Part shown: one piece after another, positions 11,993 to 63,110 of the stretch
Layout: each line of letters opens with the position of its first letter
How positions within the stretch are numbered: the first letter of the stretch is position 1
Assembly: GCA_019096065.1 (NCBI GenBank)
Contig: JAGUCH010000001.1
Span: forward strand, 1,798,001 to 1,862,000
Reading direction: 5' to 3'
Source: Paracyclopina nana
Lineage: Eukaryota; Arthropoda; Copepoda; Cyclopoida; Cyclopettidae
DNA: 64,000 nt
Translations under genes and position numbers: made by a program
The notes under the pieces: model-generated
What the model saw: the letters and a program-made list of their open reading frames with translations, nothing else
What the model was told of the DNA's origin: nothing
Database searches by the model: none

Positions 11993-11997
11993 TGCTT

Positions 11998-16406: not shown

Positions 16407-16411
16407 TGATG

Positions 16412-16445
16412 GCCGGTCCCTTAGGACCGGCTGGCTCCGTTTTTT
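16412..16445 (-). promoter_or_regulatory. gag-pol -1 ribosomal frameshift signal
   Basis: On the minus strand the heptamer A AAA AAC (16445-16439) is in the gag frame as a canonical slippery site. A 7-nt spacer follows, then a perfect 8-bp hairpin, GCCGGTCC pairing with GGACCGGC (16424-16431 with 16412-16419). The four-base loop TAAG contains the gag stop codon. The shifted frame is open straight into pol. Confidence 0.88.
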
Positions 16446-39507: not shown

Positions 39508-39909
39508 GTAGGACAATATTTTTTTTCTCTCTCTCTCCCGGAATTTTTTGACAACCTCTTTACTTATCGCCAGTCATTCACTGGAAGGAATCTGGTTAGG
39601 GGTTGTTGGTGGTGGTGGAGGTCGTTTTTTACCTTTTGGCACCTGGTGGCAAAAGGGATTGAAAAAAACCCTGATTTCTTAGCTGGGCCGCGTTTTTTCC
39701 CCTCCCCATTCAAAATAAGAGGACTGTGTGACATATCCTCTCTCGGCGTGTCGTCAAGGTTGGGTCACATTGGCTCAGCGTGAATGGAAAAAAATAGAAT
39801 TTTTCGCATCAGAGCCGGAAAAAAATGGATTGGACAAGCTCGTAACTTGAGGAGTATTGGGAAACACTATATGGGTTATATGCAGAAATTCATCAGTGTT
39901 TTTGCCAAC
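39508..39909 (+). other. host intron between the sestrin exon and the giant element
   Basis: Begins with the donor gtaggacaat. Contains a ggttgttggtggtggtggagg purine stretch near 39600. No gene was seen. Confidence 0.6.
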
Positions 39910-39914: not shown

Positions 39915-40839
39915 GATGGGCAATAAGTACATCATGTCTCTGGTGCACGTTACGACCAGAATAGGACTTGATTGGACCCCTCCAGTGGAACCTGTGGAAA
40001 CCGTGGAGCCCGTGGAGCCGCCAGAAGTCCGGAAGGTTGCCCATTCACCGCTACATCACCACCTCAAAATCACAAAACCTCCCTTCTCAAAAAACACCTT
40101 TTCATCTCCTCCAACTCTCTGATTGTTGCTGCTGTTGCTGCTACTACCTATGCGTTGAGCCTTACCTATGGCAATTCACCTGACCTTGAGTGGAGAAGTT
40201 GCTAGCCATTGTGTGGAGGAGTTGCTAGCTGCTACATAGAGAGGACCTGCAGCTGCATGATAACGGAGAGAAGCAGATGGAAGCTGATGGAACTTGCTGC
40301 GATGCATCGAGTGGAGAAGAAGGAGAAGACTCGGGGAGTTCGACGGGGGACTTCAGAGAAACAAGACATGGACCAAGTGCACATGGCCCATTGAGTGAGC
40401 TCTGCCCTGCTATTGTCCCACCAAAGTTCTCCAAAGTGTGCTGAGGCATGAAGAAGATGGCCACAAGAATATTTACTGCAGTACTTATTTCTTTGTATTT
40501 GCTGCCATTAATTTGTGTGGTGTTAAAAGCTGAGTGAATAAGACAACCTTGTTTGACTTTGTTCGACCATAACTTGTATAGAGGTTTCCTGGGCAGTTAT
40601 GCATCCTCGTCTGAGGCTGTTGAGGCCGTTGAGGACGTGGGTAGGAGGCCCAATCACAGGTCTACAGCACTGAAGCTTGCCATGTGATGTATCTCGCCGG
40701 AGTTGGAGCACCGAGGCTGCGGCTTTGGGTCCAAGGCGGGTAGACATCCGGCCAGCACCCGGAGGCTGCGAACGGTACCGTGACCATGAAGCCGATGCTA
40801 ACCATCCTAGGCTTCAGAGGGTGTGACCGTCGCACACCA
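39915..40839 (+). repeat. 5' LTR of the giant element
   Basis: 925 bp starting GATGGGCAAT and ending CGCACACCA. The duplication TTGCT sets this boundary. If the LTR instead began at the next TG it would start two bases later, and no duplication would fit. Contains gctgctgttgctgctac repeats near 40125. No long conserved open frame. Confidence 0.85.
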
Positions 40840-40842
40840 TTT

Positions 40843-42095: not shown

Positions 42096-44660
42096 ATGGC
42101 TAATCAGGATTCTAGGATCACTGGACCTACTCTGGCTGAGGAAGTTACGAAAGTAAAGGATCGATTGTTGCAACATCTTGGGATTAGTGAGGACACTTTT
42201 CAAGGGTACTTATCCCAATGCCACCCAAATGGGACCAGCAGGACTGTCTTGCAAAGATTTCTGCCACACGTTGCTTACCCTGAAGCACTAGAGTTTGTTA
42301 CGGTAACCCCAGCACAAATAGCAGCTGTCTGGGATAGGACTCGGATAGTAATTGTTCCTAGGGAGCCAATTAGACCGTTGGATGATCATATTACGGCAAT
42401 CATTAGGACTATGCCTCTTAAAGATCCAGTAGGCCAGGTTGTAAATGTGGTTAAATATATTGATGCACTTGACCCTAATTCATTGACAAGCATGACCTGT
42501 GCTTTATTATGCATTTGTTTTGGTCTGGATGAGTTCCTAACTCGTATTGAGGAAAAGAAAGATCTGCAGCGTATCCAAGAAGTTGATGGAAGCTCCATGA
42601 CCTACGCAATGTCAGGGACGCATGAAATGGTTGCGACATTGATATCCAGGAATTGGCTAAAGATACGGGCATTTGGAGATGGATTTTCCATTGTAGCGAG
42701 GCTTTATGGCCTACAAATCGATTATTTCCTAAATGAGCCGCTTAACCTGAAGCCACAGAAAACTTCAGGCCAGAGTGTACATTTTCCAAACAATGAGACG
42801 AGTAATGCTGTTCCAGATATGTCTTCGATAGCAAGTCCACCTGGGACTAACCATCATGAGTTCACTACAGGTGTTGATCTGAATGGCCAAAATAAGTCAG
42901 TCCTAACCTCGACTAAAATGAATCCTCGTGATTTGCACAACTTGACTAATTCTGTCACGCTTCCTCCAATGGAAGTTGTACATAGGATGGTACAAAAGAT
43001 GTTGTCAGGAGGCCATTTGAATATTCAGGAATTGAACACGGTAAAAGCTTACTACACGAAAATGCATGATGCAAGCACGGCAAATAAAATCATTGCCTCT
43101 GCACAAATCACGGCTAAGCACATGGTTGGGGCAAAAGTAGAGTCTATCTTCAGTAAGAATTTAGAAAGAACCTTAAGCATAGTAGATGCTGCGACGAAGG
43201 AAAGAATGGTGCCGGAAACTGACGTCATCTACGATGAGTCTGCTCCGATTTCAGAGAGGCTGAAGTTAATTAACACCGACGAGATTAAGGATGTGGAATC
43301 AGCCAGACGAGTAATCCTTCAGATGGTTGACCCAAACTTATCCTCAGGAAAGAAATTGATTGAGATGCAGAAGCTCTTTAGTGTACTTAGCACGAGGGAC
43401 GAGTTTACTTCTCTCCAAAAGCAGATATTGGCAGAGGGCTACTTGAAGACCCCTGAAATAAGTGTGGCCGCTGGAGTATCAGCTGACACTTCTAGGAGCA
43501 TTTATGATCCGACTACCATGAGAGGTTACATCGCTGCACCTACGAATGGCCATGTTAAGTATGCAAGCTCACAGTCAATGAAGGAGATTAGGCACAAATA
43601 TACTAAAAAGTTTGATTTACATAGTTCCTCATTAACTGCTGAGAATATAATAAATTTTCTGGACTATATGGCGAACGAGGCTGGCAGACAGCATTGGTCT
43701 CATGCAGCTTTGTTAACAGCCATGTGTGAGGCTTCATCCCAGAATACTAGTGAGTATTTTAAGGGGATGGCTGGAGAAGGAAAAGATGGTATGGAATTGC
43801 TATGGCAAGATATCTTTAACTACACGCAGTTTGTGCGTAAAGAGGATCCATATTTCCTCATTCAGGAGATGATCCGGAAGCCTACTGAGTGCTTCACTGC
43901 CACACTTAAGGCAATTCTTCGACTGCGAATGAAGATACATAGCACAACCATTGGAGATGGCGGAGATGCTCATGCAGTCTCTGAAGCCATCTCTGATGGT
44001 TTTGCACTCTTAGGACGTCATTGGCCTCAGAATTACCAGTCATTAGTAAACAAATACAACGACTATCTGCTGAGAGCGAATATACCTGCTAGGAGTTTGC
44101 ACGCCTACAATATCATGATGAACTTGATTGGCAGTGACCTAGGTACCTATGTGCCAAGGGACGTGGATAGGGCTCATAAAGAGGAGAGGCTGCCAATGGT
44201 ACCCAATATGCGTGCCAAACCTAGAATTGCTATGGTTGAAGCTACTGAAGAAGAGGTGTTAGACAGTGCTAGCACTATGTCGGCAGCCTCTGGCCGTAGT
44301 CAACGAAGTGCTAAAATAATAAATGAGCTACAAAGCGAGTTGGCTCGAGCAAATTTTGAATTGAGTAGGCAAGCTGTTGAAGTAGCTATGATGAAAGCTG
44401 AATCACCATCCGAGAAAATAAATAGGCTGGGAAAAACTTTTAACATAGATACATCTAAGTTGCCTGAAGGAAACCCTCTTCAGACTAATGGGTGCTTGTT
44501 CTGCAACCAATTGCATTACGCTACACAGTGTACGAATTACCCGAACACGAATTTGACCTCAATTAGAAACGATGGCACATTGTGCCCGTTGTGTAAAGGA
44601 TTGCACCTTGAGTTTAGGGGAGAACAGTGTTGGAAGACACGACCTGCTCGTAAACAATAA
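42096..44660 (+). CDS. gag: Gag-like polyprotein of the giant element
   Basis: 854 aa, intact, far longer than usual Ty3 gag. The C-terminal end has two zinc knuckles: C-x2-C-x3-H-x4-C at about residues 800-812 and C-x2-C-x3-H-x7-C at about 830-845. The x3 spacing before His is more like BEL/Pao gag than the x4 of retroviral and Ty3 knuckles. The rest is largely helical and I do not recognise it. A helical, coiled-coil-prone stretch lies before the knuckles (about 730-780). Expected role: particle formation and RNA packaging. Its stop codon overlaps the pol start as TAATG (44658-44662). Confidence 0.82.
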   Translation: MANQDSRITGPTLAEEVTKVKDRLLQHLGISEDTFQGYLSQCHPNGTSRTVLQRFLPHVAYPEALEFVTVTPAQIAAVWDRTRIVIVPREPIRPLDDHITAIIRTMPLKDPVGQVVNVVKYIDALDPNSLTSMTCALLCICFGLDEFLTRIEEKKDLQRIQEVDGSSMTYAMSGTHEMVATLISRNWLKIRAFGDGFSIVARLYGLQIDYFLNEPLNLKPQKTSGQSVHFPNNETSNAVPDMSSIASPPGTNHHEFTTGVDLNGQNKSVLTSTKMNPRDLHNLTNSVTLPPMEVVHRMVQKMLSGGHLNIQELNTVKAYYTKMHDASTANKIIASAQITAKHMVGAKVESIFSKNLERTLSIVDAATKERMVPETDVIYDESAPISERLKLINTDEIKDVESARRVILQMVDPNLSSGKKLIEMQKLFSVLSTRDEFTSLQKQILAEGYLKTPEISVAAGVSADTSRSIYDPTTMRGYIAAPTNGHVKYASSQSMKEIRHKYTKKFDLHSSSLTAENIINFLDYMANEAGRQHWSHAALLTAMCEASSQNTSEYFKGMAGEGKDGMELLWQDIFNYTQFVRKEDPYFLIQEMIRKPTECFTATLKAILRLRMKIHSTTIGDGGDAHAVSEAISDGFALLGRHWPQNYQSLVNKYNDYLLRANIPARSLHAYNIMMNLIGSDLGTYVPRDVDRAHKEERLPMVPNMRAKPRIAMVEATEEEVLDSASTMSAASGRSQRSAKIINELQSELARANFELSRQAVEVAMMKAESPSEKINRLGKTFNIDTSKLPEGNPLQTNGCLFCNQLHYATQCTNYPNTNLTSIRNDGTLCPLCKGLHLEFRGEQCWKTRPARKQ

Positions 44661-47563
44661 TGGGACCAAGTACAAAAACTCCCAATAAGAATGATAAAGA
44701 TAGTTACATCTTGCCTTCATTTATGAGGGGAGAATGTAACAAAGAAGTAGGACGAGCTTACTTTGATTATTTAAAGGAGAAATCTGTGAAAAATGCCGAA
44801 ATTATGACTCGTGGAAGTGAGGACAAAAAGGCTCTGGTCCTTGCAATAAGGGGTAGAAAAAGTCGGTTTGTCCATCAGCATACTATGACTGTAATTGAGA
44901 TTAGCATAATACTGTTTGCAATAACAATATGTCAATATTGCTTATTTGGTTGGGATTATTGGCCAATTACAGTAATCTGTAGTGGAGCAATAATAGCTTT
45001 ATGGTACTACTTTGTAAAAGGTAGCACGAGTGATGAGCAAAAAACTTGTAGTAATGATGGTATCGTTACACATCTGGCCTCAGTAAATGCTAATGAAGCA
45101 GAGCCAGTAACACATTTTGAACCTTTACCGAATCCGGAACTTGAAGATGACGTGCTGAGTATATACTCATTAAAACTACATAATGTTTGTGAAAGGTATT
45201 TTATACCAGTGGAGATAACTGGAAAAATACGTTTGCATGCTTTATTTGACAGTGGAGCAATGGTGCAGATAATATCACGCACCCTTGTAAAACTGATCGA
45301 AGACAAGATTGGTTACACTCTACCTCGAGTTGAAACTAATTATGTAATTAAGAACTTTAATGGAGAAGAATTCCCAGGGAATGAAGCTGTCTCTATTCAA
45401 GTTGCATTTGGAAATCGTGTTTTAATCAGACAGGCTGTTTTCCTTGTATCTGATTGTGATACACTATTAATGATAGGAAACTCGTTATTAGTGGACAACA
45501 ATGTCCGGATGACTAGTAAAGATGGAAAGCACTTTATGGATTTCCCTGGAAAATCTAAACATAAGAAAATTCCACTCTTACTATCAAAAGAGGCTTTCTA
45601 CCCAGTGGCAATAAATGAAGGGATCACTCTGCTCCCTGGAGAAGAAGTGACCACCATGGCTAGTTTACCTCATGATTTACCTGTCATCAGTAATGACATT
45701 CAAATAGATTCTGACTCTGACGAAGATGACGACCTTGGTCGTACCCATCACCAGAAAAATGTTTATTCCGGATTGGTGGATAAGTACTTAAACTTTATGC
45801 CTAGTAACGAGTACCGCGGAGTGACCTCTGAGGGGGCACTTACTGCTGTCACTCGTAAAGGTACTTTCCCAGTAAATATTGGGAATAATACTGAGGATCC
45901 CATCTACTTAAATGCACATGCAGTGATTGGGCGAGCCAGGATTGTCAAGAAACAGAAATTTAAGAGTACGGTTGCAGCCCATGTGGCTAACATTAGTTTA
46001 AAGGCCCTGGAGCATGAAATGGAGTCATGTTACTGCAATTATTTGGATTCGCACGTAATTGTGCAGTTTACGGATATAAATGGTCTTTCTTTTACTGATA
46101 TGCATTTTTTCAATGCCTATGAGCCATTAAGGGGAAGCCACAAGCCCTTGATTAGTAGAAAAGGAAATTACGTATTTATCTCAGCTAACCAAAGTGATGG
46201 TTACGAAGAGATAACTGATGTGATAATTAGCAAATTTATGAAACGAGAAAAATGGGATGAATTACCGTGGGCTGTTATTGTCCCAGGGCATAAACTTTTG
46301 TCTGGCGAACAAAAGCGCATTGTAATAAAGATGAATATGATGGTGGATAAACTCAAAGTAGTATGGCTAAAATATAAGTATATTTGCCCACCATGCATGA
46401 CCATTGCCTTGTGTCCTATTGAATCCTACCTCAATGGGATGGATAGGGTCATAATAACTATGATGATACATGAGTATGAGAATTACCCCCTTGCTTATCA
46501 AAGAAATGAACTAGATAAGTATTTTGAACTAAATGTTCTTGGAGCTCATGGTATCATGTTTAAGTTGTCCAACAATGTTGAGTTAATATTCCATGTCCCT
46601 AGCGAACATGCTGAGAATATTGGCTACTTAACCACGCTTGTGTACATAATAATTGGTCAATTACGGTACCAAAATGTGGCCGACGACGTGTGGATCAGAA
46701 CACTTATGGATGGCGATGTGCATGTAGGTGACCCACTTTGTATGGCAACCACCGCTGCATTGCTAGTGTTATCTGGGTTACAAATGTACCCTGATGACCT
46801 TACCAAAGAGGATATAAAGACAAAATTTGGTAAATTTATACCATTTGTACTTGAACCACATGGTTGCTCGTGCAAGCCTTGCTTGGCAAAGAACATGGGC
46901 ATCAAAGTGCCACTTAAGAGCTTCACTACTATTTACGAAGGTCCTATTGTGGATACCAGTGTCAGACAAACAGTTCTAAAAAGTCCTTCTGAACTAGGCC
47001 TCGTATCAGCTAGCCTGGAGCTTTCTAAAGATGAGAGAAATAACCAAAAACTATATGATGAGGTTTATAATCTCCTTTTGAAATTTCCAAGTGAATTTGA
47101 CCCCCTCCGTGTTTTAAATGGAGTAGCAGGTTATACATTTCCATTGAAACCAGAAACGATCCTGAACATGGATCTAGAACACATTCCGGATGAGGTCAGA
47201 GAAGACTTTAGGGACCTCTTAATAGAATATAAGACTATATTCTCGGAGGATCCTAGATCATATAGGCTATGGAATGTCGAACCCATGAAGTTCCAGTTAA
47301 AGGATGATAAACCATTAGTGCCAAAAGTATTTAACATGTCGGAGTATGAAACTACGCAGGTTGACCGTAAAATAGCATTAATGCTGTCATCTGGATTAAT
47401 TGAAATTGTGGATAAGTCACTTAATAGGTACTCGGCTTGCCCTTGTTTCTTGACTTCAAGGCCAAATGATGAAAAGCTGCCTATGAAGCAACGCAAGCCT
47501 CGGCTACTAGTTGACTTAACATCTTTTAATAAAAATCTGATATTTACGACTTCGAGCACATAG
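44660..47563 (+). CDS. pol: Pol polyprotein, N-terminal part (protease and start of RT)
   Basis: 967 aa beginning at an ATG that overlaps the gag stop (TAATG), in the -1 frame relative to gag. Translation by stop-restart is therefore likely. No canonical slippery heptamer was seen at the overlap. Two hydrophobic segments (about residues 77-93 and 101-118) precede the protease, which is unusual for Pol. Aspartic protease motif DSGA is at 197-200. A long stretch of unknown function (about 300-870) follows. The N-terminal RT region begins near 900 (VDLTSFNK motif). The frame then stops at 47563 in the middle of RT, while the RT homology continues in another frame from about 47548. This is a break in the enzyme. 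Confidence 0.82.
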   Translation: MGPSTKTPNKNDKDSYILPSFMRGECNKEVGRAYFDYLKEKSVKNAEIMTRGSEDKKALVLAIRGRKSRFVHQHTMTVIEISIILFAITICQYCLFGWDYWPITVICSGAIIALWYYFVKGSTSDEQKTCSNDGIVTHLASVNANEAEPVTHFEPLPNPELEDDVLSIYSLKLHNVCERYFIPVEITGKIRLHALFDSGAMVQIISRTLVKLIEDKIGYTLPRVETNYVIKNFNGEEFPGNEAVSIQVAFGNRVLIRQAVFLVSDCDTLLMIGNSLLVDNNVRMTSKDGKHFMDFPGKSKHKKIPLLLSKEAFYPVAINEGITLLPGEEVTTMASLPHDLPVISNDIQIDSDSDEDDDLGRTHHQKNVYSGLVDKYLNFMPSNEYRGVTSEGALTAVTRKGTFPVNIGNNTEDPIYLNAHAVIGRARIVKKQKFKSTVAAHVANISLKALEHEMESCYCNYLDSHVIVQFTDINGLSFTDMHFFNAYEPLRGSHKPLISRKGNYVFISANQSDGYEEITDVIISKFMKREKWDELPWAVIVPGHKLLSGEQKRIVIKMNMMVDKLKVVWLKYKYICPPCMTIALCPIESYLNGMDRVIITMMIHEYENYPLAYQRNELDKYFELNVLGAHGIMFKLSNNVELIFHVPSEHAENIGYLTTLVYIIIGQLRYQNVADDVWIRTLMDGDVHVGDPLCMATTAALLVLSGLQMYPDDLTKEDIKTKFGKFIPFVLEPHGCSCKPCLAKNMGIKVPLKSFTTIYEGPIVDTSVRQTVLKSPSELGLVSASLELSKDERNNQKLYDEVYNLLLKFPSEFDPLRVLNGVAGYTFPLKPETILNMDLEHIPDEVREDFRDLLIEYKTIFSEDPRSYRLWNVEPMKFQLKDDKPLVPKVFNMSEYETTQVDRKIALMLSSGLIEIVDKSLNRYSACPCFLTSRPNDEKLPMKQRKPRLLVDLTSFNKNLIFTTSST

Positions 47564-48287
47564 TGCCACCTATCCCTACCTTGCTAGGGATGTTATCTAA
47601 TTCGTGTTTAATGTCATCTTTCGATGTAACATCCGGATACGATAACTTACCTGTGGACTCTGATAGTGCTGATATGTGCTGCTTTGCAGTAACGTCCCTC
47701 GCAGTATATATAGATCAGTCTTTCTGAAAAGTAAGTCATGCCTACAAGGGATCGCCATTGCTCCGAGAATGTTCGCAGAGCTCCTCCAACAGGCCCTTAA
47801 CCCTGAGATATTGCCCTTTACATGTGTATATGTAGACGATTTGGTTGTGGCCTGTAAGAACCCTGGCAAGCCTAGGCCTGCTACATTGGATGATTACATA
47901 CGACATTTAGGTGATCTGAGGAAGTTGTTTCAAAGCCTCAAGGACTTAAATGCCCTATTACAAATTAAAAAGACACAATTAGGAGTTAAAGAAGCTACAG
48001 TCTTAGGGCACCTAATATCTATTGACGAAAATGGGATTATGACTATGCGAATGCCCGATAAATTCAGGTCTGCATTTGATGATTTCCCTATTCCCACAAC
48101 CAAGAAACAGCTGCAAAAGTTTATTGGAATGACAAACTGGTTAAGCCAGTACTGTCCTAATATGGCTACATACACAGCTCCACTGCTAGATGTATTACAA
48201 ACAGCGCAAGAAAACACAGGAACGATAACCTTCAGCGCTTTACAATAGAAATGTTTCTAAAAAGCAATCGACGAGATTAAAACAGGT
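47548..48287 (+). pseudogene. broken RT segment of pol (two frame shifts, two stops)
   Basis: RT homology continues from about 47548 in a new frame (FDVTSGY-like palm motif), which stops at 47725-47727. A third frame, open across that point to 48248, carries the catalytic YVDD (about 47830-47841) and the RT thumb. That frame meets an in-frame TAG (48246-48248) and TAA (48258-48260) before the RNase H frame opens. No GT-AG intron would remove the breaks without removing conserved RT motifs. The segment is therefore defective as read, by mutation or by assembly error. Confidence 0.78.
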
Positions 48288-51200
48288 ATGTCACTGGCAT
48301 TGCCACGTTTTAAAGAAGGTTATTTAGTGGTTGATTCTGGGGTAATTAGCACCTCAGCTTTATTAATGGAGGTGAATGAGGATGGTAAAGCTGTGTGTGT
48401 TGGTGCACACAGCGCACGCTTTCCTTTATCAGTTTGCCTCTCGTACCACTCGTTTCAGCGTGAAGCATTAGGAGTTTTAACAATGATAAACCATTTTAAA
48501 AGCATACTATTCGCCTATGAGAGACTAGTCATAGTTACGGATTGTCTATCAATAGCCAGCGTGCTGGCTAGTTCGTTTACTGGTAAAGATGCTTTCACTC
48601 ATAGACTAGCAGCTCGTATTTATTCCCTGCCTGTAGCATGGAAATTGAGAGCTGTACCTCGCACAGAGGTAGAAGTAGTTGATGTATTATTAAATAAGTA
48701 CCATCAAACGCCAGAAGGTGAAACTGTATTTTATGCGCCCTACTCTATTGCGGGGCAGATTACGAAGGATATTTATGCAAATAAGTACCCTCTGCCCGAT
48801 GCAATCAAAGATAAGGTGCTAACGACACAGGAATTACTTACACATGTGTATGATACACTTGTGAATTCTGGAACTATGAGTAAGACTCTACTCCAGAAAA
48901 GGTTGCATTGCCTAAATGACAAATGGGTTGACATGATCGGCACGAAGCCGCCATTTGTGCACGACGACACGTCAACCTTACTTCAAGCAAAACATGATGA
49001 TGATGAATTTCTTGAGGACGAGATACTTTCAAAACTATCTCATTCGTTTCATGGGGAAGCTGATTTTGACTCACCAGTAAATCATATAGAAAATAACTTA
49101 AGAGTAGATACAGTAACTGTTAAACGGCGAATATCGCCACATTTACCAGGAATTACACGCAACCTACTCATTAAGTTGCAACAAAATTGTGAAGAAACAC
49201 AAAAGATAATAAATTTAATTATGCTTTCGCCTCCTGAGAAAGTACCATTAGATGTTGCGGTAAAATACCGAGTTCTTGATGGTGCCTTGTTGGTTATACG
49301 CAAGAATGTAAAGTTACCCTTCAGTGTTGCTACTAATACAAAAGTGTATATGAGTATGCCTAACTGTGTGTACCTTATGGCATGTATTCATCTGTTACAT
49401 AACCATTTGGGGAGTAAAAAGACCAATACCCTTTTTACTCAATCTATGTATTCAACTTACTCAGCCAGAATCAGTCGTATTATTATTGGTGCGTGCATGC
49501 ATTGTGCTTTATACCGCCAAGCTAATACTAGGTTTGTTGGGAAGGGGCGTTTCCGCATCCCGACTCAGCCATGGGAATTGGTAATGATTGATTTGGCCAA
49601 GTTCGATGACACTTTAGTCAAAGGGTCTTCCGCAAAAGACCTGTTAGTATTTGTCGATGTTTATTCTAAGATGATAATTGCTAAACCACTATTGGATGCT
49701 AAATATAAGCAGGTAGCGAATGCTATGGAAGAAGTAATTTCTTTGTTTGGGGTGCCAAAAACATTACTTGCAGATAATGGTGCCCAGCTAACGACTAATA
49801 AGGCCCTCCAACGCCTTGTTGATCGTTATAAAATTAAGGAGTTATGTCATTACCGAACTTTATCGCCATACAAGCATTCGAACGCTTACGCTGAAAATGC
49901 TATACGAATAATAAGGAGTGCATTAGTCTTAAACTCGAACTCATACAATATGAAGTTATGCGATGTGTTTAAGACTTCTATTTACGCAATAAATAACCGC
50001 CCTCTTACTTATTTGGCATATACTGATGATAAAGGGGTGAAGATCACCCCCACCCCTTTCTCATTATTTTTCGACAAAATGCCGTTCTATCACTTAGGAC
50101 GGGATGTGTTTGAAATACTTAGTGAAAGCGAGGACAAAATTCATAAAGCTGAATGGCGTCAACGCATGCGCGAACATGATCTAGAAGAACAGTTCCACTT
50201 AGAAAAAATGAAGGCTACTGAAAGGCCTTCCTTTAAACCTGAGATTGGATCTTTAGTTTTGGTTATAAAACACCCCATAAATAAACAACGGTATAAATTT
50301 ATGGATGATTTATTTGAAGTCATAGACATTGGACAGCATTCAACTGTGACTGTAAAGCCGTATCTTTATGATGGGCTTACTCGTGAAGTAAGCTTAGATC
50401 ATGTAAAGTTATACCGATTCCATGAACTATATAGATTTCTTCCGGAAAAGTTGTCCAACCTCTTGAAACGACCTTACACTCCGGAAGAAATTCTACGTAA
50501 AAAAGCAAGGAATGAGGTTATTGAATTTCTTGAAGGGGCAGCCCCTGAAAGTCATGATTATAGTTTGCGGGGTCACACAAAGGCCTCTAGTATAGTGGCC
50601 TCGCAAAGTTCATTGATTTCACAGTCCACATCAATGGACACAGAGCCAAGTGCGATTCACCAAACCTATAAGCGCTCTGGTTCTATTCTCATGCAAAAGG
50701 CAGCGAGCTTGTTTAAGCCCTCAGATATTTTGCGAATACAGGAGGAAAATAAACAACTCGTGCAAAAGCAATGGGAACAATATGACCGTAAGAAGTTAGA
50801 AGAAAAATACCTAGCTGACAATGCTGGTAATAATATTCTCCACAAAGAAGCAAGTGATTCTTTGTCTGACACTGGCACTGATGATTTTATTGAACAAGCA
50901 ATTGCACTAAGTGCAAATACAGGGCCCAATGAAGCATTTTACGAGGACATGCTGGCCTTGAGCCAACGTGGCCCTCCTACTTTTGCTGAAATGGCCCAAC
51001 AAGAAAGATTATACCCGAATTTACCAAGTGTCAAACCTGACCATATTAGTACTCCTGATCGCTCGAACGTCAGTGAAGGGACACTTGCAGGGGTCAGCCC
51101 TGTAAAGTGGGCCTTTCGTGGCCAATACCGTGATCAACGTGTGCCAGATATACCTGAAAGTCCGGAGAAATATCACACTCCTGACCAAAGTATGTCTGCA

Positions 51201-52661
51201 ACTCCTAATAAGGACAATAATAATATAGAGGAGATTGTTGAAAAAGCAGCATCTTTCATCGCACCTTCCAAATTTGACACTGACCTAGAATCTTTATCTG
51301 CTGGCCTGGAAAGTATGCAATTAGCACTGCCTACTGATCCATTCGGCGGAAATACACACGACGATGAACATGAAAGTAGTGATAGTGATGACACAACTAC
51401 AATTTATTATACTGCTCGTAAAAATCTGCGGCGTACACCGCTGACAAAAAGCATTAAACAGAATGTTCAAAAAGCAATCGATATTGTACGACGCCAGTTA
51501 GAACTCTCACCACGTAAACGGCCTCCCTCTCCACCAATCGATAATCCTATGGAAGGGCCCAGTGCCCCGAAACCGGAGATTTATGGAGCTGAAGGAGGGG
51601 AGCCTCAAGTTCGGTATACTATAATGAAAAGTCCGGTCAGAAAACCTGATTTGCAACCAAGAAATAGTGAGTTACCAAATGCGGGAGTACCACAAACTGT
51701 GCCAAGCACAAACGTACTTGAGCACTTTTCGGCAAAGGTTACACCTTTGGGTGACCTGGCTATGACTGAAAAGGAGCACATTGCTCATCAAGCTACTCCT
51801 GGGGTTGCACACCCCACTGTCAGGCGAACTGGCCCAGTAGTTCCACAACCGGGTACTCAGAAGCCACCTGAGGCTGTTGTACGGGCCCCGTATGAACCAG
51901 AAAAGTTGTCTCCATTAAGTTTTCTTCCTCATAACCTAAGGAGAAGAAAAAACGTTAATTATCGCTCCCTGGCAGGGTTTCAAAAGTATAATAAAAAGAA
52001 CGTACCTGCGGGTCTTCCTGCGATTGCTCAGCCTGATCCCTCTGAAGCATTGACTCGTTCCGAAGCAGCATTGACAACTGAACAGGATACAAGTCCTTCA
52101 CAGAATGTTCAACAGCTCCTTGACACGAACCTTTTGGTGTCTTCTGACCAGCCGAGTAGTTCGGCAGCCACATCATTCGCCGAACCAAAGGAACCAGAAT
52201 CCTCGGCCGCTGTCCAACCAACAGTTGAACCCGAGATTAGTGAGCCCGCTCCAATACGGATCCTTCCCAGACGACAACTGCGGGAGAGAAAGGGAACTGT
52301 AGATTACAGGAAGTTAGCGGGCATAAGAAAGTATGAGAAAGAGAAAAGCAAAAATGGTAAAGAACAAAAATACTTTCCTAATATTCCACGAATAGCTCCT
52401 TTAGATCGGGAGGACAAGGAATTCGCCCGTGTTAGGTTTACAAATACGAAAGAAAGGCCTGACCAAAAAGAGAGAGAGTTACTAGAAGAGGTAATTCCTA
52501 ATTGGAAACTGAATAAAAACATGGCTGCAGTCCCTGATTATATTCAGTTTCTCAAAGCGACTGGCATGGATCACCAAGATGATAGCAACATAAATGAAAT
52601 GAAGCGGCTGCGTCTCACCTATGATGAACTATACAAGCTAGCTTTTAAGAAGTTTAAATAG
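48288..52661 (+). CDS. pol: Pol polyprotein, C-terminal part (RNase H, integrase, long extension)
   Basis: 1457 aa in the same frame as the preceding RT segment, separated from it only by stop codons. RNase H uses D16, E59 and D85. The integrase zinc finger has His around 368-373 with C403 and C406. The integrase core is D435, D496, E536, that is, 39 residues between the last two instead of the usual 35. After about residue 720 comes an unusual extension of roughly 740 aa: charged, Pro/Ser-rich, probably disordered. It contains two copies of a basic motif (LRRRKNVNYRSLAGFQKY near nt 51930 and LRERKGTVDYRKLAGIRKY near nt 52280). No chromodomain was recognised. The function of the extension is unknown. 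Confidence 0.85.
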   Translation: MSLALPRFKEGYLVVDSGVISTSALLMEVNEDGKAVCVGAHSARFPLSVCLSYHSFQREALGVLTMINHFKSILFAYERLVIVTDCLSIASVLASSFTGKDAFTHRLAARIYSLPVAWKLRAVPRTEVEVVDVLLNKYHQTPEGETVFYAPYSIAGQITKDIYANKYPLPDAIKDKVLTTQELLTHVYDTLVNSGTMSKTLLQKRLHCLNDKWVDMIGTKPPFVHDDTSTLLQAKHDDDEFLEDEILSKLSHSFHGEADFDSPVNHIENNLRVDTVTVKRRISPHLPGITRNLLIKLQQNCEETQKIINLIMLSPPEKVPLDVAVKYRVLDGALLVIRKNVKLPFSVATNTKVYMSMPNCVYLMACIHLLHNHLGSKKTNTLFTQSMYSTYSARISRIIIGACMHCALYRQANTRFVGKGRFRIPTQPWELVMIDLAKFDDTLVKGSSAKDLLVFVDVYSKMIIAKPLLDAKYKQVANAMEEVISLFGVPKTLLADNGAQLTTNKALQRLVDRYKIKELCHYRTLSPYKHSNAYAENAIRIIRSALVLNSNSYNMKLCDVFKTSIYAINNRPLTYLAYTDDKGVKITPTPFSLFFDKMPFYHLGRDVFEILSESEDKIHKAEWRQRMREHDLEEQFHLEKMKATERPSFKPEIGSLVLVIKHPINKQRYKFMDDLFEVIDIGQHSTVTVKPYLYDGLTREVSLDHVKLYRFHELYRFLPEKLSNLLKRPYTPEEILRKKARNEVIEFLEGAAPESHDYSLRGHTKASSIVASQSSLISQSTSMDTEPSAIHQTYKRSGSILMQKAASLFKPSDILRIQEENKQLVQKQWEQYDRKKLEEKYLADNAGNNILHKEASDSLSDTGTDDFIEQAIALSANTGPNEAFYEDMLALSQRGPPTFAEMAQQERLYPNLPSVKPDHISTPDRSNVSEGTLAGVSPVKWAFRGQYRDQRVPDIPESPEKYHTPDQSMSATPNKDNNNIEEIVEKAASFIAPSKFDTDLESLSAGLESMQLALPTDPFGGNTHDDEHESSDSDDTTTIYYTARKNLRRTPLTKSIKQNVQKAIDIVRRQLELSPRKRPPSPPIDNPMEGPSAPKPEIYGAEGGEPQVRYTIMKSPVRKPDLQPRNSELPNAGVPQTVPSTNVLEHFSAKVTPLGDLAMTEKEHIAHQATPGVAHPTVRRTGPVVPQPGTQKPPEAVVRAPYEPEKLSPLSFLPHNLRRRKNVNYRSLAGFQKYNKKNVPAGLPAIAQPDPSEALTRSEAALTTEQDTSPSQNVQQLLDTNLLVSSDQPSSSAATSFAEPKEPESSAAVQPTVEPEISEPAPIRILPRRQLRERKGTVDYRKLAGIRKYEKEKSKNGKEQKYFPNIPRIAPLDREDKEFARVRFTNTKERPDQKERELLEEVIPNWKLNKNMAAVPDYIQFLKATGMDHQDDSNINEMKRLRLTYDELYKLAFKKFK

Positions 52662-56049: not shown

Positions 56050-56055
56050 TTTATT
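56050..56055 (-). terminator. poly(A) signal of the 135-aa antisense gene
   Basis: The minus strand reads AATAAA about 100 bases after the stop codon of the upstream spliced gene, within an otherwise GC-rich region. Confidence 0.6.
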
Positions 56056-56156: not shown

Positions 56157-56755
56157 TCTGCAAAAAGATAAGATGAATATAGTGGAGCTGTGATAGCTTA
56201 AGTGAATAAGTTAGACTTACTAGACGACTCCTTCAAGGGGGTCCGCCTCCGCCACGCCCATCATGCGGAGGACCCACGCAGAAATGCGGGGGAGGTCCTC
56301 GGGCTCCGCCCACACGCGGCTGACAAGCCGGTAGAGGCCTCTCGGCTTCGTCCGGTGGACCCAGACGAGGGCGGGAGCACCACCACGTAATACGTGGCCG
56401 CCCCTGCCACGTTCAGGGCCACGCCCTAGAGGATCTCTTCGGCCTGTAATACGAGAAAAAGTCTAGCTTTGACCAAATAGATAACGAATAATGCACTTAC
56501 GAAGCCCTGAACGGGGCAGGAGGACACGCCTCCTGATGGCCCAAAGGGCCTGCGGGCGGGGCCGCAGGTGGCTGGGGCCACCCGCCGCGGACTCGGCCGC
56601 GGGGGGCGCCCCTACGGGAGCCTCGGTGGCTGGCGCCACCGTTGTAGTAGAAGGATTCTGCATTCCCAATGAAAAAGATACAGTTTAACGAAAGGATTCA
56701 CCGGATTTTAATCGAAATAAAAACTTACGAACAAGCCGTGTAGGAAGCCCGCCAT
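56157..56755 (-). CDS. antisense spliced gene, 135-aa basic protein of unknown function
   Basis: Minus-strand gene with four coding pieces: 56729-56755, 56501-56657, 56221-56443, and the last base of the stop at 56157. The three introns (71, 57 and 63 bp) all have gtaagt donors and cag acceptors, and the frame stays open across every junction (phases 0, 1, 2). The product starts MAGFLHGLF, then has a Pro/Ala/Thr-rich segment, a strongly basic Arg-rich middle and a more ordered C-terminal third. I do not recognise it. Its DNA is much more GC-rich than the neighbouring pol. A TATA-like aataaaaagagg lies about 80 bases upstream and AATAAA about 100 bases downstream, so it looks like a self-contained unit. 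Coding status is inferred from splice signals only. Confidence 0.62.
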
Positions 56756-56930: not shown

Positions 56931-56936
56931 TTTATT
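56931..56936 (-). terminator. poly(A) signal of the 304-aa antisense gene
   Basis: TAATAAA on the minus strand about 310 bases after the stop at 57245, downstream of an AT-rich tatata stretch. It lies before the promoter of the next antisense gene. Confidence 0.55.
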
Positions 56937-57244: not shown

Positions 57245-58294
57245 TTAGTTGGCATCGCTGTTCACGTCCTGGGAAGCCTTTGACTCGGCGGAATCCTGGT
57301 CCTCATCTGCGATGGAGAGAGGTTCAGCCTCAGTGATCTCGTCCTTGTCCGGAATGGACTCCGCTGCCGAATCCAAGCGACGGTGATCTCGGGCTCGAGC
57401 CCGGCGAGATCGTCTCTTCAAAGTCCGCGGTCCACACCCTTCAGTAACAGGTACCTGAAAAGGTGCATGAAAAAGAGTACATGAGTAACCTGTTTACAGT
57501 TCATAAATTGATAGGTCCTTACCCAGCCCTTGGGATTAGGGACGTCATAGATGTGGGCCAGCCCGGACATGATGCTGGGATTCCGGCGTAGTGTTCCATA
57601 GGGGTCCATGGCAGCCATTGCCATTTGGAGCGAATGGACATCAGGGTCACGCATAATCGGGGCTGGTGGCAAAGCTCGGACCTCTGGTGTACAGCAGTGG
57701 AATACCGCTGCATGCTCAGATGGGGCCTTTGTTGGAAGCATTTGCATGGCTCCACTGGCAGCCGCTGACTCCGTACGAATAGCTCGAAACGTGGCCACGA
57801 ACCTACGGCACCATCGTGATGTCCACACGCAGAAGTACACCAACATGCCAAGCAAAATCTGTAAGGAAGAGGTGGTAAATAAAATTTGGCCATAGTCGCA
57901 AAACTAGCCATAAAGTTGAACTTACCAAAGCCATCCCAATGGAGGCTCCAAGACCGATCCACCCCATTACACCGTATCGGTGATAATTGAAAACCTCATC
58001 GATCCAGTCCCTCTGAGGGGCAACGGGACGATAACCATTTGGTACCGCTGGCATTAAATCTCGGGGGTCAAACACCTCCACCTCAAAGGGATCGACAGGA
58101 GCTGGGTCAAATCCAGGTCCACCCTCAGCTTCAGAAATGCCGCTCTCAGGAATAGCAACAGTAGGACCTACTGGGCCCGTGGTTTGAGAATCCACTAGCG
58201 CAGGACCCACCGTTGATGGCTGGATTGGAACCTCAGTGGGAGCCTCTGTAGAGCTGCCCTCTGGAGTTAGAGAAACCCAGGCTAAAATGACCAT
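57245..58294 (-). CDS. antisense spliced gene, 304-aa single-pass membrane protein
   Basis: Minus-strand gene with three exons: 57926-58294, 57523-57858 and 57245-57454. The two introns (67 and 68 bp) have gtaagt/gtaagg donors and ttacag/ttttcag acceptors, both in phase 0. The start MVILAWVSL could be a short signal peptide. Residues 10-100 are rich in Thr, Ser, Pro and Gly, like a mucin-type ectodomain. The first intron lies inside a transmembrane helix (about residues 110-134) that is complete only after splicing, which is strong support for the exon model. A basic cluster and an acidic end form the cytoplasmic side. I do not recognise the family. It could be a second surface protein or a host receptor-like gene. 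A TATA-like motif and a poly(A) signal flank it. Confidence 0.75.
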
Positions 58295-58659
58295 CGCGAG
58301 TTGATTAGGATTGTAATATCTCTAGAAAAGTGACCAGCTTGGACGAAGTCCGATGGGAGAATGATCAACATTAAGTGAAAGCTGAGAGTTGCAACTGCCT
58401 GTTGCACCCTCGCTACGTTTCTCGACCTAGGAAGTCAAAAATGTCCGTGCAACTCGACGATGAGCGTGCGCGCACGCGCCCATCTTATAAGGAAGTGGTA
58501 TAAGTCCTGTTACCTTGTTCTTTTTTACCTAGACAAAAAATGACCTTGGTTTTTTAAAAAAGGGACAACCCACGCATTTAAATGCCCGAGAGTGTGGGGC
58601 ATACCTGTAAAGATGCGTATAAAAAGGGCAGTTTACGGCCCTACAGCAACAGTCTGGAA
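58295..58659. promoter_or_regulatory. divergent promoter between the antisense and sense genes
   Basis: The palindrome CTTATAAG (58484-58491) can serve as a TATA box for the minus gene starting at 58294. TATAAAAAG (58618-58626) serves the plus gene starting at 58660. Between them lies a perfect 14-bp palindrome, GCGTGCGCGCACGC (58464-58477). Two oppositely directed genes thus share one 365-bp control region. Confidence 0.6.
58618..58626 (+). promoter_or_regulatory. TATA box of the 371-aa gene
   Basis: TATAAAAAG lies 42 bases before the ATG at 58660. Transcription would start about 25-30 bases on, leaving a short leader. Confidence 0.6.
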
Positions 58660-59775
58660 ATGAGCGATAGCTTGAATAGCCTCGATAACCTAAGGATGTC
58701 TCTGATCACCGAAGCCATGGAAGGAGAATCTGCATTGGTCTCCATGATGGAGACTGATAAGACTGGAGAGTTCAACGAGCATGAGGTTAGTGAGCTCCTA
58801 AAGGATGATGAGCCAGTTATGGATCGCAACATGCCTGCTGTCAATACTGAGAACCAAGCCCTAAATCAGACGACTAGACACCAGGACCAAGAGGAACCCC
58901 TCGAGGTCCCATTGGAAAGGGTATCCTCCAGTTTGGGGTACCCATTGCCATTTGAGGATTTGATCAGGCCTCCCCACATGGAGGGCCTACAGGCCTATGC
59001 GAGGGAGGCGAGCCGGACCAGAGCTACTATACAGCAGCATTATGATGCAAGCCTGTTGAAGATAGCTACGAAAGAGGTCATGACTGTTGGAAAGGAGGTG
59101 CCTTTTGACCTAACGATCAGGATAAATGGAGAACCCTATGAACGGACCGAGCCTCGTAGGCCATTGAAGGTGAAAAACTTTGACTGCATTGAATTGATTA
59201 TCGAGCCAGTGAGTAAAGGAGGGGAGATTCCCGATTTTCTTGTTATATTTCCGATGCTAGACAATCTACCAGTCTACAACTTGCCTGACAAGATGGAATA
59301 TGACGAGAATGTCCATAAGTTGGCCAATGTCAGGAGTTGGTCTGCCGTCCAGAGCCCAACAGCTGTTGGGTATTATGTGCATGGAATCCGTGGACAGGGT
59401 GGAGCTCAACTCCCTGTAGTAGTCTCCAAACATTATACCAAGCGAGGCTGCATTCAGATCATGCCAACATTGGACTCATCATTTTGGGATCCGCGGATGT
59501 TCCATGATTTGACGTCGCCTTACGTGCAACTGTATGTGGGACCGCCGTCCTGCCTTAACAATGGCGTGGCTCAAGCACCACGAAAATTGGACGTGAAGAT
59601 CGATATGACCGCACTCCTGCCTACCATGGTAGCCCAGTTTGTCGATCGAGCCATTGGGACATATCCGCAATGCGTGAGGTACACAGCCGGGGCCAGGCCC
59701 CAAAAACTAGCTGCGTTTGTGGAGAAGTCTTGGCAACAAAAACAAGGCGAGGACCTAGACTGTACGCCGATGTAG
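58660..59775 (+). CDS. sense gene, 371-aa protein of unknown function
   Basis: The open frame runs from 58582, but I choose the ATG at 58660. The TATA box at 58618 would start the transcript after the earlier ATG. The N-terminal 100 residues are acidic, Met/Leu/Ser-rich and probably disordered. From about residue 120 the protein looks folded, with alternating hydrophobic strands, and has no membrane segment or signal peptide. I do not recognise it. A structural or nucleoprotein-like role is possible but unproven. A second open frame (59670-59957) overlaps its end in the -1 frame and may be an extension. The unit ends with AATAAA at 60057. Confidence 0.7.
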   Translation: MSDSLNSLDNLRMSLITEAMEGESALVSMMETDKTGEFNEHEVSELLKDDEPVMDRNMPAVNTENQALNQTTRHQDQEEPLEVPLERVSSSLGYPLPFEDLIRPPHMEGLQAYAREASRTRATIQQHYDASLLKIATKEVMTVGKEVPFDLTIRINGEPYERTEPRRPLKVKNFDCIELIIEPVSKGGEIPDFLVIFPMLDNLPVYNLPDKMEYDENVHKLANVRSWSAVQSPTAVGYYVHGIRGQGGAQLPVVVSKHYTKRGCIQIMPTLDSSFWDPRMFHDLTSPYVQLYVGPPSCLNNGVAQAPRKLDVKIDMTALLPTMVAQFVDRAIGTYPQCVRYTAGARPQKLAAFVEKSWQQKQGEDLDCTPM

Positions 59776-60190: not shown

Positions 60191-62077
60191 ATGTCGTTTG
60201 AATTGGCCTTCATACTCACCCTTTTGGGATCTGGCACTTGGGGCCTGTCCAACTACCCAAATACTCAGTTCGTACTGGATGAGGCACTTTGCCATTCCGG
60301 ACATGCCCTAGTTCCAGTTAGAGTGGTCCATCATCCTAGAATGGTGAAAAAGGCTATGGTGTTAGATACGAAGGATTACAGTGGCCTTTTGCAATCAACA
60401 ATTGGCGTCCTGAATAATATTGACACCGTGGTAAAAGAAGTTAAGGACAAGGAGGACTTGGTCCATATTGGGAATATGTTGGCAGTTGGAGAAGAGAGTA
60501 CCCCTAACACCATCGACAAAGCTTGTTCCAAACGTCAAGGGTTTGTACCATTTGCCCCTAAAACTTATGAAGACATGGACGTTTTTCTAGAACTATTACG
60601 TTATACGGCAAAGGAAAGCCCTCTTGCCACTAAGGTAACTTTATGTGTAAAGTTTCGGATCGTCAATGAGGTACCTATGTCCTTGGATGGGAAAACCACA
60701 TTTCCTCAAGTGGGGTATGAGAAAAAACCGGATGATGAGATAATTGCAGGTTACCCGTGTATCACGGGTTATTTCACTGTGGGACAAGGGCCGAGGACCA
60801 TGACGTCAGTTAAAGCCCATGCACCACACAGTGATGGGAAGGCAACAATATGTGTTCAAAATGACTTTGTCATCACCCATAAGGACTTTGTCAAATCTGA
60901 ATTGTCTGGGAGGAAAAGCTTCCTTGAAAAGGCCTACAACGCCGTGATGGCCCTAGCAGAATCAGGTAAATCGACAAAATTCACCGATGGCATGATAGCA
61001 AATACCACTCCACTGAGAGTACCACCGAAAGTTTCTTTGGCCTTTCGACTACTGAAAGGTTTTAGCAAGGTATTTTTGAAGTCTGGATTATTACCAAATG
61101 ATCTGCAGCAAGTATTGTCATATGCTGACACAGTTGTGCAATTTGCCAGAAATTTTGGGCAGGCAGGCACACGGTTCAGCTTACCAACTCTGGCGCATAA
61201 TAGTGACAGAAATGCGGCCACCATTACTAATGTTTATGAACCTTTGGCGAACACTGAGCAGAGTGGAGACTTTGTCACTCAGGGAATAGTTGGGTATAAA
61301 GAAATGGACCCTACCCCTGAGGTCACATATCATATTGTGTCACGAAGCAAAGACGGATTCTTACTGCATGATAGGTATTTGACCCGCCGAAATGATCTAG
61401 TGTTTGTGTCTCGGGAAATACCCATCTATAGTGATTGCTTCGTTCATGACCATAATTTAACCGTGTGTGAAAACAAGGACTTTGACTTGACAGAAGGAGT
61501 CCAGCACTGTGCTAAAGTACTTTTAGGGCTAGCTCTGGGTGACCCTTTTGACGCCTGTGAATTAGAGCCACTTAAAACTAACACGCTCACTGATGTGGGA
61601 TGTGCTAATTATAAAGGGTTCTTAAATTTGGTCTCAAGTGCAATGATTAATAGGACTTGTTTAAATGACTTCAAGAACTCGGTGGTATTGGAACCAGGAT
61701 CCTATCAGATCCTTAGCAATTGTAAGGTTTCCCTTGGAACTCAAAGTACTGGATACGAGGACTCTCCTTGGGAAAGTGATATGGTGAAGTTCTTTACAAA
61801 ATTCCCTGAAGATGAACTTGGAGGTTTATTCAATAATTGGGAAATAATCCTGACGGTGAGCCTATTGTCTGCAGCACTGGGATTCACGTGTATGGGCATA
61901 TTGATTTGGAAAAGGCGGCGAGTATGCAGCCGATGTTATGATGATGGAGGCTATGTGAGACCTAATACGTCCCGCCCACGGCTTCGCTACAATAGAGGAG
62001 ATCGCAAGAAAGATGCTGACCAAAATCAGCGCCTTACTGTGCGAATGAGTGGCCTGGGAGGCGCGACGTTAGTATAA
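60191..62077 (+). CDS. envelope-like membrane glycoprotein, 628 aa
   Basis: Intact type I membrane protein. The signal peptide is at residues 1-19 (MSFELAFILTLLGSGTWG). The ectodomain has about 530 residues with many Cys and several N-x-S/T sites. One transmembrane helix lies at about 550-574, followed by a tail of about 50 basic residues with a C-x2-C. Position just before the 3' LTR and this topology make it the likely Env for cell-cell or cell entry. I do not recognise the fold. It does not look like the env of the Ty3 element in this window. It has its own TATA-like box at 60129. No AATAAA follows directly, so it probably uses the LTR poly(A) site. Confidence 0.75.
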   Translation: MSFELAFILTLLGSGTWGLSNYPNTQFVLDEALCHSGHALVPVRVVHHPRMVKKAMVLDTKDYSGLLQSTIGVLNNIDTVVKEVKDKEDLVHIGNMLAVGEESTPNTIDKACSKRQGFVPFAPKTYEDMDVFLELLRYTAKESPLATKVTLCVKFRIVNEVPMSLDGKTTFPQVGYEKKPDDEIIAGYPCITGYFTVGQGPRTMTSVKAHAPHSDGKATICVQNDFVITHKDFVKSELSGRKSFLEKAYNAVMALAESGKSTKFTDGMIANTTPLRVPPKVSLAFRLLKGFSKVFLKSGLLPNDLQQVLSYADTVVQFARNFGQAGTRFSLPTLAHNSDRNAATITNVYEPLANTEQSGDFVTQGIVGYKEMDPTPEVTYHIVSRSKDGFLLHDRYLTRRNDLVFVSREIPIYSDCFVHDHNLTVCENKDFDLTEGVQHCAKVLLGLALGDPFDACELEPLKTNTLTDVGCANYKGFLNLVSSAMINRTCLNDFKNSVVLEPGSYQILSNCKVSLGTQSTGYEDSPWESDMVKFFTKFPEDELGGLFNNWEIILTVSLLSAALGFTCMGILIWKRRRVCSRCYDDGGYVRPNTSRPRLRYNRGDRKKDADQNQRLTVRMSGLGGATLV

Positions 62078-62181: not shown

Positions 62182-63105
62182 GATGGGCAATAAGTACATC
62201 ATGTCTCTGGTGCACGTTACGACCAGAATAGGACTTGATTGGACCCTCCAGTGGAACCTGTGGAAACCGTGGAGCCCGTGGAGCCGCCAGAAGTCCGGAA
62301 GGTTGCCCATTCACCGCTACATCACCACCTCAAAATCACAAAACCTCCCTTCTCAAAAAACACCTTTTCATCTCCTCCAACTCTCTGATTGTTGCTGCTG
62401 TTGCTGCTACTACCTATGCGTTGAGCCTTACCTATGGCAATTCACCTGACCTTGAGTGGAGAAGTTGCTAGCCATTGTGTGGAGGAGTTGCTAGCTGCTA
62501 CATAGAGAGGACCTGCAGCTGCATGATAACGGAGAGAAGCAGATGGAAGCTGATGGAACTTGCTGCGATGCATCGAGTGGAGAAGAAGGAGAAGACTCGG
62601 GGAGTTCGACGGGGGACTTCAGAGAAACAAGACATGGACCAAGTGCACATGGCCCATTGAGTGAGCTCTGCCCTGCTATTGTCCCACCAAAGTTCTCCAA
62701 AGTGTGCTGAGGCATGAAGAAGATGGCCACAAGAATATTTACTGCAGTACTTATTTCTTTGTATTTGCTGCCATTAATTTGTGTGGTGTTAAAAGCTGAG
62801 TGAATAAGACAACCTTGTTTGACTTTGTTCGACCATAACTTGTATAGAGGTTTCCTGGGCAGTTATGCATCCTCGTCTGAGGCTGTTGAGGCCGTTGAGG
62901 ACGTGGGTAGGAGGCCCAATCACAGGTCTACAGCACTGAAGCTTGCCATGTGATGTATCTCGCCGGAGTTGGAGCACCGAGGCTGCGGCTTTGGGTCCAA
63001 GGCGGGTAGACATCCGGCCAGCACCCGGAGGCTGCGAACGGTACCGTGACCATGAAGCCGATGCTAACCATCCTAGGCTTCAGAGGGTGTGACCGTCGCA
63101 CACCA
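62182..63105 (+). repeat. 3' LTR of the giant element
   Basis: 924 bp matching 39915-40839 except for one fewer C (near 62245). No consensus AATAAA was seen; a gaataagac near 62801 is the nearest motif. Confidence 0.87.
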
Positions 63106-63110
63106 TTGCT
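63106..63110 (+). repeat. target-site duplication TTGCT, right copy
   Basis: TTGCT directly follows the right LTR and equals 39910-39914. Confidence 0.75.

Follow-up and report, generated by a model that had tools for sequence, protein, structure and literature searches.

An antisense, apparently spliced membrane-protein gene carried by an LTR retroelement of the copepod Paracyclopina nana

An antisense gene in a retroelement

The stretch of DNA considered here, referred to as the window, comprises 64,000 nucleotides of the copepod Paracyclopina nana (assembly GCA_019096065.1, contig JAGUCH010000001.1, positions 1,798,001 to 1,862,000 of the forward strand). It contains a long terminal repeat (LTR) retroelement and, on the strand opposite to the genes for retroelement replication, a gene that is called gene A below. 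Retroelements are expected to shed introns on passage through RNA. Gene A consists of three antisense exons joined in phase 0 by two short GT-AG introns; all exons are open, their lengths are all multiples of three, and the predicted product has 304 residues (Table 1). A first-pass annotation of the window had proposed this structure, and every coordinate is confirmed, including the junctions 57926/57858 and 57523/57454, which are exact with the numbers denoting the flanking exon bases. Gene A is very probably a real spliced gene for a membrane protein.

The first junction lies within a hydrophobic segment, as had been noted, with hydrophobic sequence on both sides (mean hydropathy 1.53 at the end of exon 1 and 2.41 at the start of exon 2). 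The protein is predicted to span the membrane once. Its variable ectodomain of ~105 residues would be followed by the hydrophobic segment, which intron 1 divides, and then by an extended tail. Largely conserved motifs of the tail are CCT, SLQMxMAAMDPxGTLRxNPS, YxVPNPxGW at the end of exon 2, and a basic stretch. The description of the ectodomain as mucin-like overstates the case for the window copy, in which residues 1-106 contain 13% serine plus threonine, 16% proline, and zero N-glycosylation sequons; serine plus threonine reach 39% in L066, a copy from a second family of the element. A profile search had been suggested for the whole product and was carried out on the exons, none of which matches a Pfam family at E≤10. 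A region of ~0.3 kb separates gene A from the start of a sense open reading frame (ORF) of 371 amino acids. Where the first-pass annotation had a single antisense gene there are two, as a further one, gene B, lies downstream on the same strand; the description of gene A itself as spliced and antisense stands.

Table 1. Features of the retroelement in the window
Feature	Coordinates	Strand	Remarks
5' LTR	39915..40841	+	stretch matching the 3' LTR; shorter by two bases if TTGCT represents the target-site duplication
gag-like ORF, 854 aa	42096..44660	+	named by position alone
Protease and start of reverse transcriptase	44660..47563	+	Ty3-type aspartyl protease, weak, E 0.003, below the Pfam cut-off
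Reverse transcriptase, later part	47676..48248	+	Pfam RVT_1, E 2.2e-9
RNase H/integrase with long C-terminal extension	48288..52661	+	rve E 1.4e-7, RT_RNaseH E 1.2e-4, from the first 737 aa, both just under the curated cut-offs
AATAAA 3' of gene B	56050..56055	-	read from the sequence; putative function
Gene B introns	56658-56728, 56444-56500, 56158-56220	-	71, 57, and 63 nt in the window
Gene B exon 3	56221..56443	-	short frame to TAG, then hydrophobic-basic frame; third donor overlaps the final stop
Gene B exon 2	56501..56657	-	Thr/Pro/Ala-rich; out of frame in the window; in frame and stop-free in 50/57
Gene B exon 1	56729..56755	-	MAGFLxGLF; in 57/59 loci examined, window included
AATAAA 3' of gene A	56931..56936	-	possible polyadenylation signal; in 16/16 aligned rows
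Gene A exon 3	57245..57454	-	210 nt including stop, 69 codons; basic, then acidic C-terminus
Gene A intron 2	57455..57522	-	68 nt, GTAAGG..TTTCAG, phase 0
Gene A exon 2	57523..57858	-	336 nt, 112 codons; second half of hydrophobic segment, most of tail
Gene A intron 1	57859..57925	-	67 nt, GTAAGT..TTACAG, phase 0, within hydrophobic segment
Gene A exon 1	57926..58294	-	369 nt, 123 codons; start, ectodomain, first half of hydrophobic segment
TATA box of the sense ORF diverging from gene A	58618..58627	+	TATAAAAAGGGCA in 52/55 other copies; putative function
Sense ORF 3' of the TATA box, 371 aa (397 aa from 58582)	58660..59775	+	without known family
env-like ORF, 628 aa	60191..62077	+	hydrophobic segment near C-terminus; named by place and make-up
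3' LTR	62182..63107	+	stretch matching the 5' LTR; shorter by two bases if TTGCT represents the target-site duplication

Copies in the host genome

A search of the host genome (92 Mb in 10 contigs) with the exon 1 ORF of gene A gives at least 83 matches, which, with second pieces of one copy merged by eye, amount to 56 places including the window. All 55 further copies can be aligned exon by exon and were scored for the ATG, the frame, the absence of internal stops, and the splice ends. Both introns have GT..AG ends in each of the 55 (52 tallied by script, and L032, L039, and L055, in which the script mis-set the boundaries, by direct reading); the ATG is kept in 55 and the stop codon in 53. 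Every feature scored is intact in 43 copies, and the remaining 12 have a frameshift, an internal stop, a deletion, or a boundary mis-set by the script. Stops or lost splice sites in other copies had been regarded beforehand as evidence against the gene; no splice end is lost in any copy, and none of the 55 is intronless.

Among 126 candidate LTR matches in the host genome, the 40 that were scored are 98-100% identical and include 18 LTR pairs, each with a single gene A copy inside. In all 55 further copies gene A adjoins the start of the sense ORF, so that all 56 places with exon 1, window included, lie beside this ORF. Gene A therefore travels with the element, and the earlier assignment of a spliced antisense gene to an LTR element is upheld by frame, splice ends, and start over the 55 further copies.

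Purifying selection

The copies differ in their distance from the window, with 47 close copies (L009-L055), seven in a second allele class (L056-L062), and the more distant L063. Gene A is under purifying selection: between the window and the seven class-2 copies the ratio of nonsynonymous to synonymous divergence (dN/dS) is 0.10-0.21 at a synonymous divergence (dS) of 0.84-1.49, as estimated by the Nei-Gojobori method with Jukes-Cantor correction, without a formal test and with L059 lacking exon 2. Intron 1, with an identity of 0.49-0.63 in this comparison, is less conserved than exon DNA (0.70-0.84 in the 6 of 7 copies measured). A comparison of all six frames by their ratio of nonsynonymous to synonymous differences (pN/pS), covering 6 copies and 3 exons, finds the antisense frame stop-free in 17 of 18 cases and with the lowest ratio in 16 of 18; exon 2 of L031 is a tie, and exon 3 of L063 fails on both stop and ratio. 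Codon-position counts for exon 1 contained a copy with a deletion and are left out. An open frame with splice consensus sequences arising by chance is conceivable when a single sequence is viewed; it is rejected on the frames and splice ends of the 55 copies, the dN/dS ratios, and the six-frame comparison, and its probability is negligible.

Further families of the element

A search of the host genome with a piece of pol (46700-47560) gives full-length matches that define three families beyond that of the window (family I): family II with 12 matches at 77-78% identity, family IV with 7 at 57-58%, and family III with 7 at 43%. Loci are assigned to families II-IV by this identity through their closeness to the pol matches on the contig. 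Four of six family II loci (L066, L070, L071, and L072) have a three-exon antisense gene placed between gene B and the sense ORF, in phase 0 wherever measured; exon 1 is broken in L065 and unrecognized in L069. In L066, exon 1 ends in DWVGLVAALVIIL and exon 2 starts with LLLIMVTCFLYRL. An hhalign comparison of exon 1 between families I and II aligns the last 23 residues (E 4e-5, probability 70%) and ends at the junction in both. All four family III copies have an exon ending in GVWII and a next one starting with IILSALAWG, or near it, around a GT..AG intron, which in L067 is 62 nt long; the second frame is open to its stop without need of a further intron. In the one family IV copy read, IMWTTAAFCTLV and LCLIGIGFGLWKLF flank a 61-nt intron.

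A phase-0 intron within a hydrophobic segment is thus common to all four families (hydropathy was computed for families I, II, and III), and the rest of the protein is hardly recognizable. The split segment is read as the mark of one old gene with an old intron, and the same antisense layout in three further families supports the notion of an element-borne gene. The alternative that a host gene with its introns was captured in antisense orientation, and has no role in the element, draws on the fact that the introns are ordinary short introns, which antisense capture would keep. Purifying selection among element copies and the presence of the gene in four families make it highly improbable, as does the sense ORF beside all 56 exon 1 places; these lists are lower bounds, and a host copy is possible. 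The 371-aa sense ORF is found in families I, II, and III, the range of that comparison.

Two side observations concern family IV. L076 has an apparent extra short intron in the ectodomain part (1043-985, minus strand) and some N-glycosylation sequons, as judged by eye. Beside the element at L075 lies a host-like ORF (3225-4502, plus strand), which presumably resembles a slingshot-type phosphatase.

Divergence of gene A from its neighbors

The identity of the class-2 copies to the window was profiled over 52.0-61.5 kb in bins of 250 bp. It has a trough at gene A, with 67-81% per bin at 57250-58250, and mostly 76-98% in the flanking bins of 54.25-57.0 kb and from 58.5 kb, the exceptions being parts of L057, L059, and L062 that are badly aligned or missing. 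L061 is 96-98% identical to the window in its LTRs, pol piece, env, and sense ORF (98% for the LTRs and 98% for the pol piece). In this pair, dS is 0.12 for env (198 codons) and 0.35 for the sense ORF, compared with 1.23, 2.30, and 0.66 for exons 1, 2, and 3 of gene A. Rows for exon 2 of L009 (frameshift) and the IN_Cext rows (query out of frame) are left out. Synonymous divergence is older in gene A than in its neighbors. Faster protein evolution would not raise dS, and substitution of the cassette by an allele of greater age would; gene A has the look of a cassette that has been exchanged. The profile has a second trough at 52.0-54.25 kb, so that gene A is not the sole variable part. A result that weighs against exchange is that in L056 the dS of the sense ORF (0.85) is similar to that of exons 1 and 3 (0.61 and 0.83), the contrast being confined to exon 2 (2.1) and env (0.44).

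Phages swap their immunity regions. By analogy, gene A may be an exchangeable surface-type cassette that sets the incompatibility or immunity type of the element, an idea suggested by a deeply different allele in an element with LTRs and pol piece 98% identical to those of the window and a low dS of env, and one that we consider doubtful. If it were true, the antisense, intron-bearing layout would allow the integrated copy to go on expressing gene A without recourse to the LTR, and a resident element could exclude incoming elements of the same type.

The element and its surroundings

The element spans 39915-63107, a length of 23.2 kb. Its two LTRs differ by one inserted base only, and TTGCT at either flank fits a target-site duplication, both of which indicate a young insertion. 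The element has the near-identical direct LTRs with a target-site duplication, as well as the protease (weak match), reverse transcriptase, RNase H, and integrase, of an LTR retrotransposon or endogenous retrovirus. The best protease match is of the Ty3 type (Metaviridae, Ty3/Gypsy) and lies below the cut-off. The pol frame of the window copy is defective, being broken within reverse transcriptase between 47563 and 47676; in several other copies pol is one open frame of up to 2669 codons. Decayed-looking ORF pieces on the plus strand at 52750-54250, which recur with stops in other copies, form the second variable region of the element.

Database searches add few names to the sense-strand ORFs. 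Pfam returns no significant family for the gag-like ORF and no match for the C-terminal extension of the RNase H/integrase ORF. The env-like ORF has no named homolog in Pfam or a large protein database and nothing in a search of PDB sequences; the large-database search gave nothing at E≤10 among 7998 scored candidates, and the one with RNase H/integrase nothing at E≤0.001 among 7995, both being weak negatives as they were run without a positive control. The sense ORF has one chance match among PDB sequences (E 1.5). Scans of IMG/VR give no pattern match with the integrase and six each with env and with the sense ORF, none of which is confirmed.

Elsewhere in the window, the minus strand at 9668-17377 holds another cluster resembling an element, its ORFs being 318, 1370, and 810 aa long and in what appears by eye to be a gag, pol, env-like order, and a tandem array of 25 copies of a 16-bp unit occupies 30056-30455. 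Just upstream of the element, on the plus strand at 39377-39508, lies an exon-like stretch that we take to be sestrin-like; if it is an exon of such a host gene, the element would be an intronic insertion there.

Gene B

Gene B starts with an ATG at 56755 and has three GTAAGT donors. For exon 1, only its presence was used for counts. The window copy is out of frame in exon 2 and behind an in-frame TAG at the start of exon 3 (56426-56428, minus strand). The context of this TAG is kept in 56 of the 57 loci with gene B exon 1, and also in the family II loci L065 and L066. Behind it, 53 of the 57 loci have a frame of 63-68 codons ending in EGVV (the different end of L063 is left out). The conserved TAG together with the conserved frame that follows it suggests two products, made through readthrough of the stop or through a second splice acceptor at CTCTAG/GG. 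No piece of gene B matches a Pfam family at E≤10. At L064 (4267-5188) gene B is present, and the match to the element breaks off shortly beyond it, without reaching gene A.

Between the window and L056-L063, the introns of gene B (identity 0.68-0.98) are about as conserved as its exons (0.84-0.96), compared with 0.49-0.77 for the introns of gene A in the same copies. The high identity fits recombination or constraint at the nucleotide level. Constraint of the latter kind would agree with an antisense transcript that acts mainly as RNA, whether by regulating gag-pol or by giving rise to double-stranded RNA, with the frame secondary, and antisense transcripts with RNA roles are discussed for retroviruses and LTR elements (PMC10186651, PMC7264820). 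A role as RNA does not predict the low dN/dS of gene A against class 2 or the fact that its antisense frame alone is open, and this explanation is very unlikely.

A model for gene A

Gene A is probably a protein-coding gene of an endogenous-retrovirus-like LTR element, with its own promoter, a spliced transcript, and a single-pass membrane product. It would be read in the direction opposite to gag-pol-env and away from the 371-aa sense ORF, from a promoter of its own in the region of 58.3-58.6 kb, and the host spliceosome would remove the two short phase-0 introns, as their conserved ends suggest. Retroelements move via RNA of sense polarity, and any intron on the sense strand disappears if it is spliced out. 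The introns of gene A can persist because in this RNA they are present as reverse complements (CT..AC), which are ignored by splicing; the corollary is that gene A must be expressed from integrated DNA. As to its role, a tentative proposal, given slightly less than even chances, is that the product assists Env and the 371-aa protein as an accessory factor located at the plasma membrane or on the surface of the particle. Such a protein might work in release, at the particle surface, or in cell-to-cell passage, as an accessory function on the side of Env.

Several points weigh against this model. Transcription, splicing, topology, and role are all predicted from DNA, and the membrane call is one of hydropathy, with an N-terminal hydrophobic stretch that is short. 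A TATA-like site on the gene A side is kept in some, not all, aligned copies. Intron 2, at 0.71-0.77 identity, is about as conserved as exon DNA, which limits the contrast with exons to intron 1, and exon 3 of L063 has a stop and no coding signal. In the comparison between families I and II, hhalign gives no significant match for exon 2 (E 0.017) or exon 3 (E 0.095), and the ORF in families III and IV was chosen partly for a hydrophobic segment meeting a donor, which introduces a bias.

Comparison with known systems

The first-pass annotation held that antisense accessory genes are abnormal in retroelements, a view at odds with several known examples. Antisense ORFs between pol and the 3' LTR are frequent in plant LTR elements, where their function is unknown, and a review recommends that antisense and spliced transcripts of these elements be studied (PMC7264820, PMC11963269; recommendation in PMC7264820). 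The word intron is absent from the main texts of both papers by a term search. Gene A resembles these ORFs (aORF-3R) in place, in orientation, and in having no assigned role, and an own promoter is reported for gene23 of Grande (PMC7264820, PMC11963269). The place and orientation of aORF-3R are seen for gene A in the window, and its position beside the sense ORF recurs in the further copies. Differences are that the plant ORFs belong to plant hosts, that the Grande product is nuclear, and that most Retand clusters encode TRP28 (PMC7264820, PMC11963269), whereas the gene A exons match no Pfam family.

Among retroviruses, the closest parallel in protein type is ASP of human immunodeficiency virus 1 (HIV-1), an antisense membrane protein found on the cell surface and viral envelope (PMC10186651). 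Like ASP, gene A is an antisense gene for a predicted membrane protein of a retrovirus-like element. The ASP ORF sits in the env region, its product has two predicted helices, and a full-length form occurs mainly in group M (PMC10186651). Gene A overlaps no listed sense ORF, lying apart from the env-like ORF (57245-58294 versus 60191-62077), and has one hydrophobic segment, two introns, and relatives in several families.

HBZ of human T-cell leukemia virus type 1 (HTLV-1) is a bZIP regulator expressed from the 3' LTR. It is an antisense retroviral gene with a spliced form and in these respects is like gene A, which is antisense and predicted to be spliced (PMC10186651). The gene A ORF starts at 58294, 3.9 kb before the 3' LTR at 62182, and its exons have no Pfam match, bZIP included.

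In insects, elements of the MDG1 type are transferred into the oocyte by means of sORF2, a small membrane protein (PMC11952523). Gene A shares with these FAST-type proteins the nature of a small accessory membrane protein of an LTR element, single-pass by prediction in its own case. Gene A, and perhaps gene B, could on this basis be a cell-cell fusogen that moves capsids directly between cells, as a small single-pass protein with a basic tail does for the insect elements (PMC11952523); gene A has an ectodomain, one hydrophobic segment with Tyr in its second half, and a basic stretch. FAST proteins are smaller, with 80-200 residues in total and an ectodomain of ~30, compared with 304 and ~105 before the hydrophobic segment in gene A, and they occur in elements without Env, with no antisense gene described in the part of the source consulted (PMC11952523). 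The element of the window also carries an env-like ORF, and no sequence link to sORF2/FAST was found in a search that went no further than Pfam. A fusogen of this type is accordingly rather unlikely.

In animals, the ORF3 proteins with transmembrane domains of bdelloid rotifer LTR elements are a further case of an extra membrane-protein ORF; antisense occurs once in the available text of that paper, in connection with small RNAs, and this text does not give the strand or introns of the ORFs (PMC5408684). A survey of annelids states that the role of antisense ORFs is not clear (PMC8220671). No animal LTR element with a spliced antisense gene for a membrane protein turned up in searches of the open-licence literature, which is no proof of absence. 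Antisense genes are already known in plant LTR elements and retroviruses, and what appears to be new is a spliced, conserved membrane-protein gene in an animal element. At least one intron-bearing gene appears to have been carried for long on the opposite strand and kept by selection. Its many young copies make gene A testable by plain RNA sequencing. Confirmation by RNA would supply a comparative case for the view that an antisense gene in an LTR element can be of great age, have a function, and encode a protein, a matter still argued for ASP and the plant antisense ORFs.
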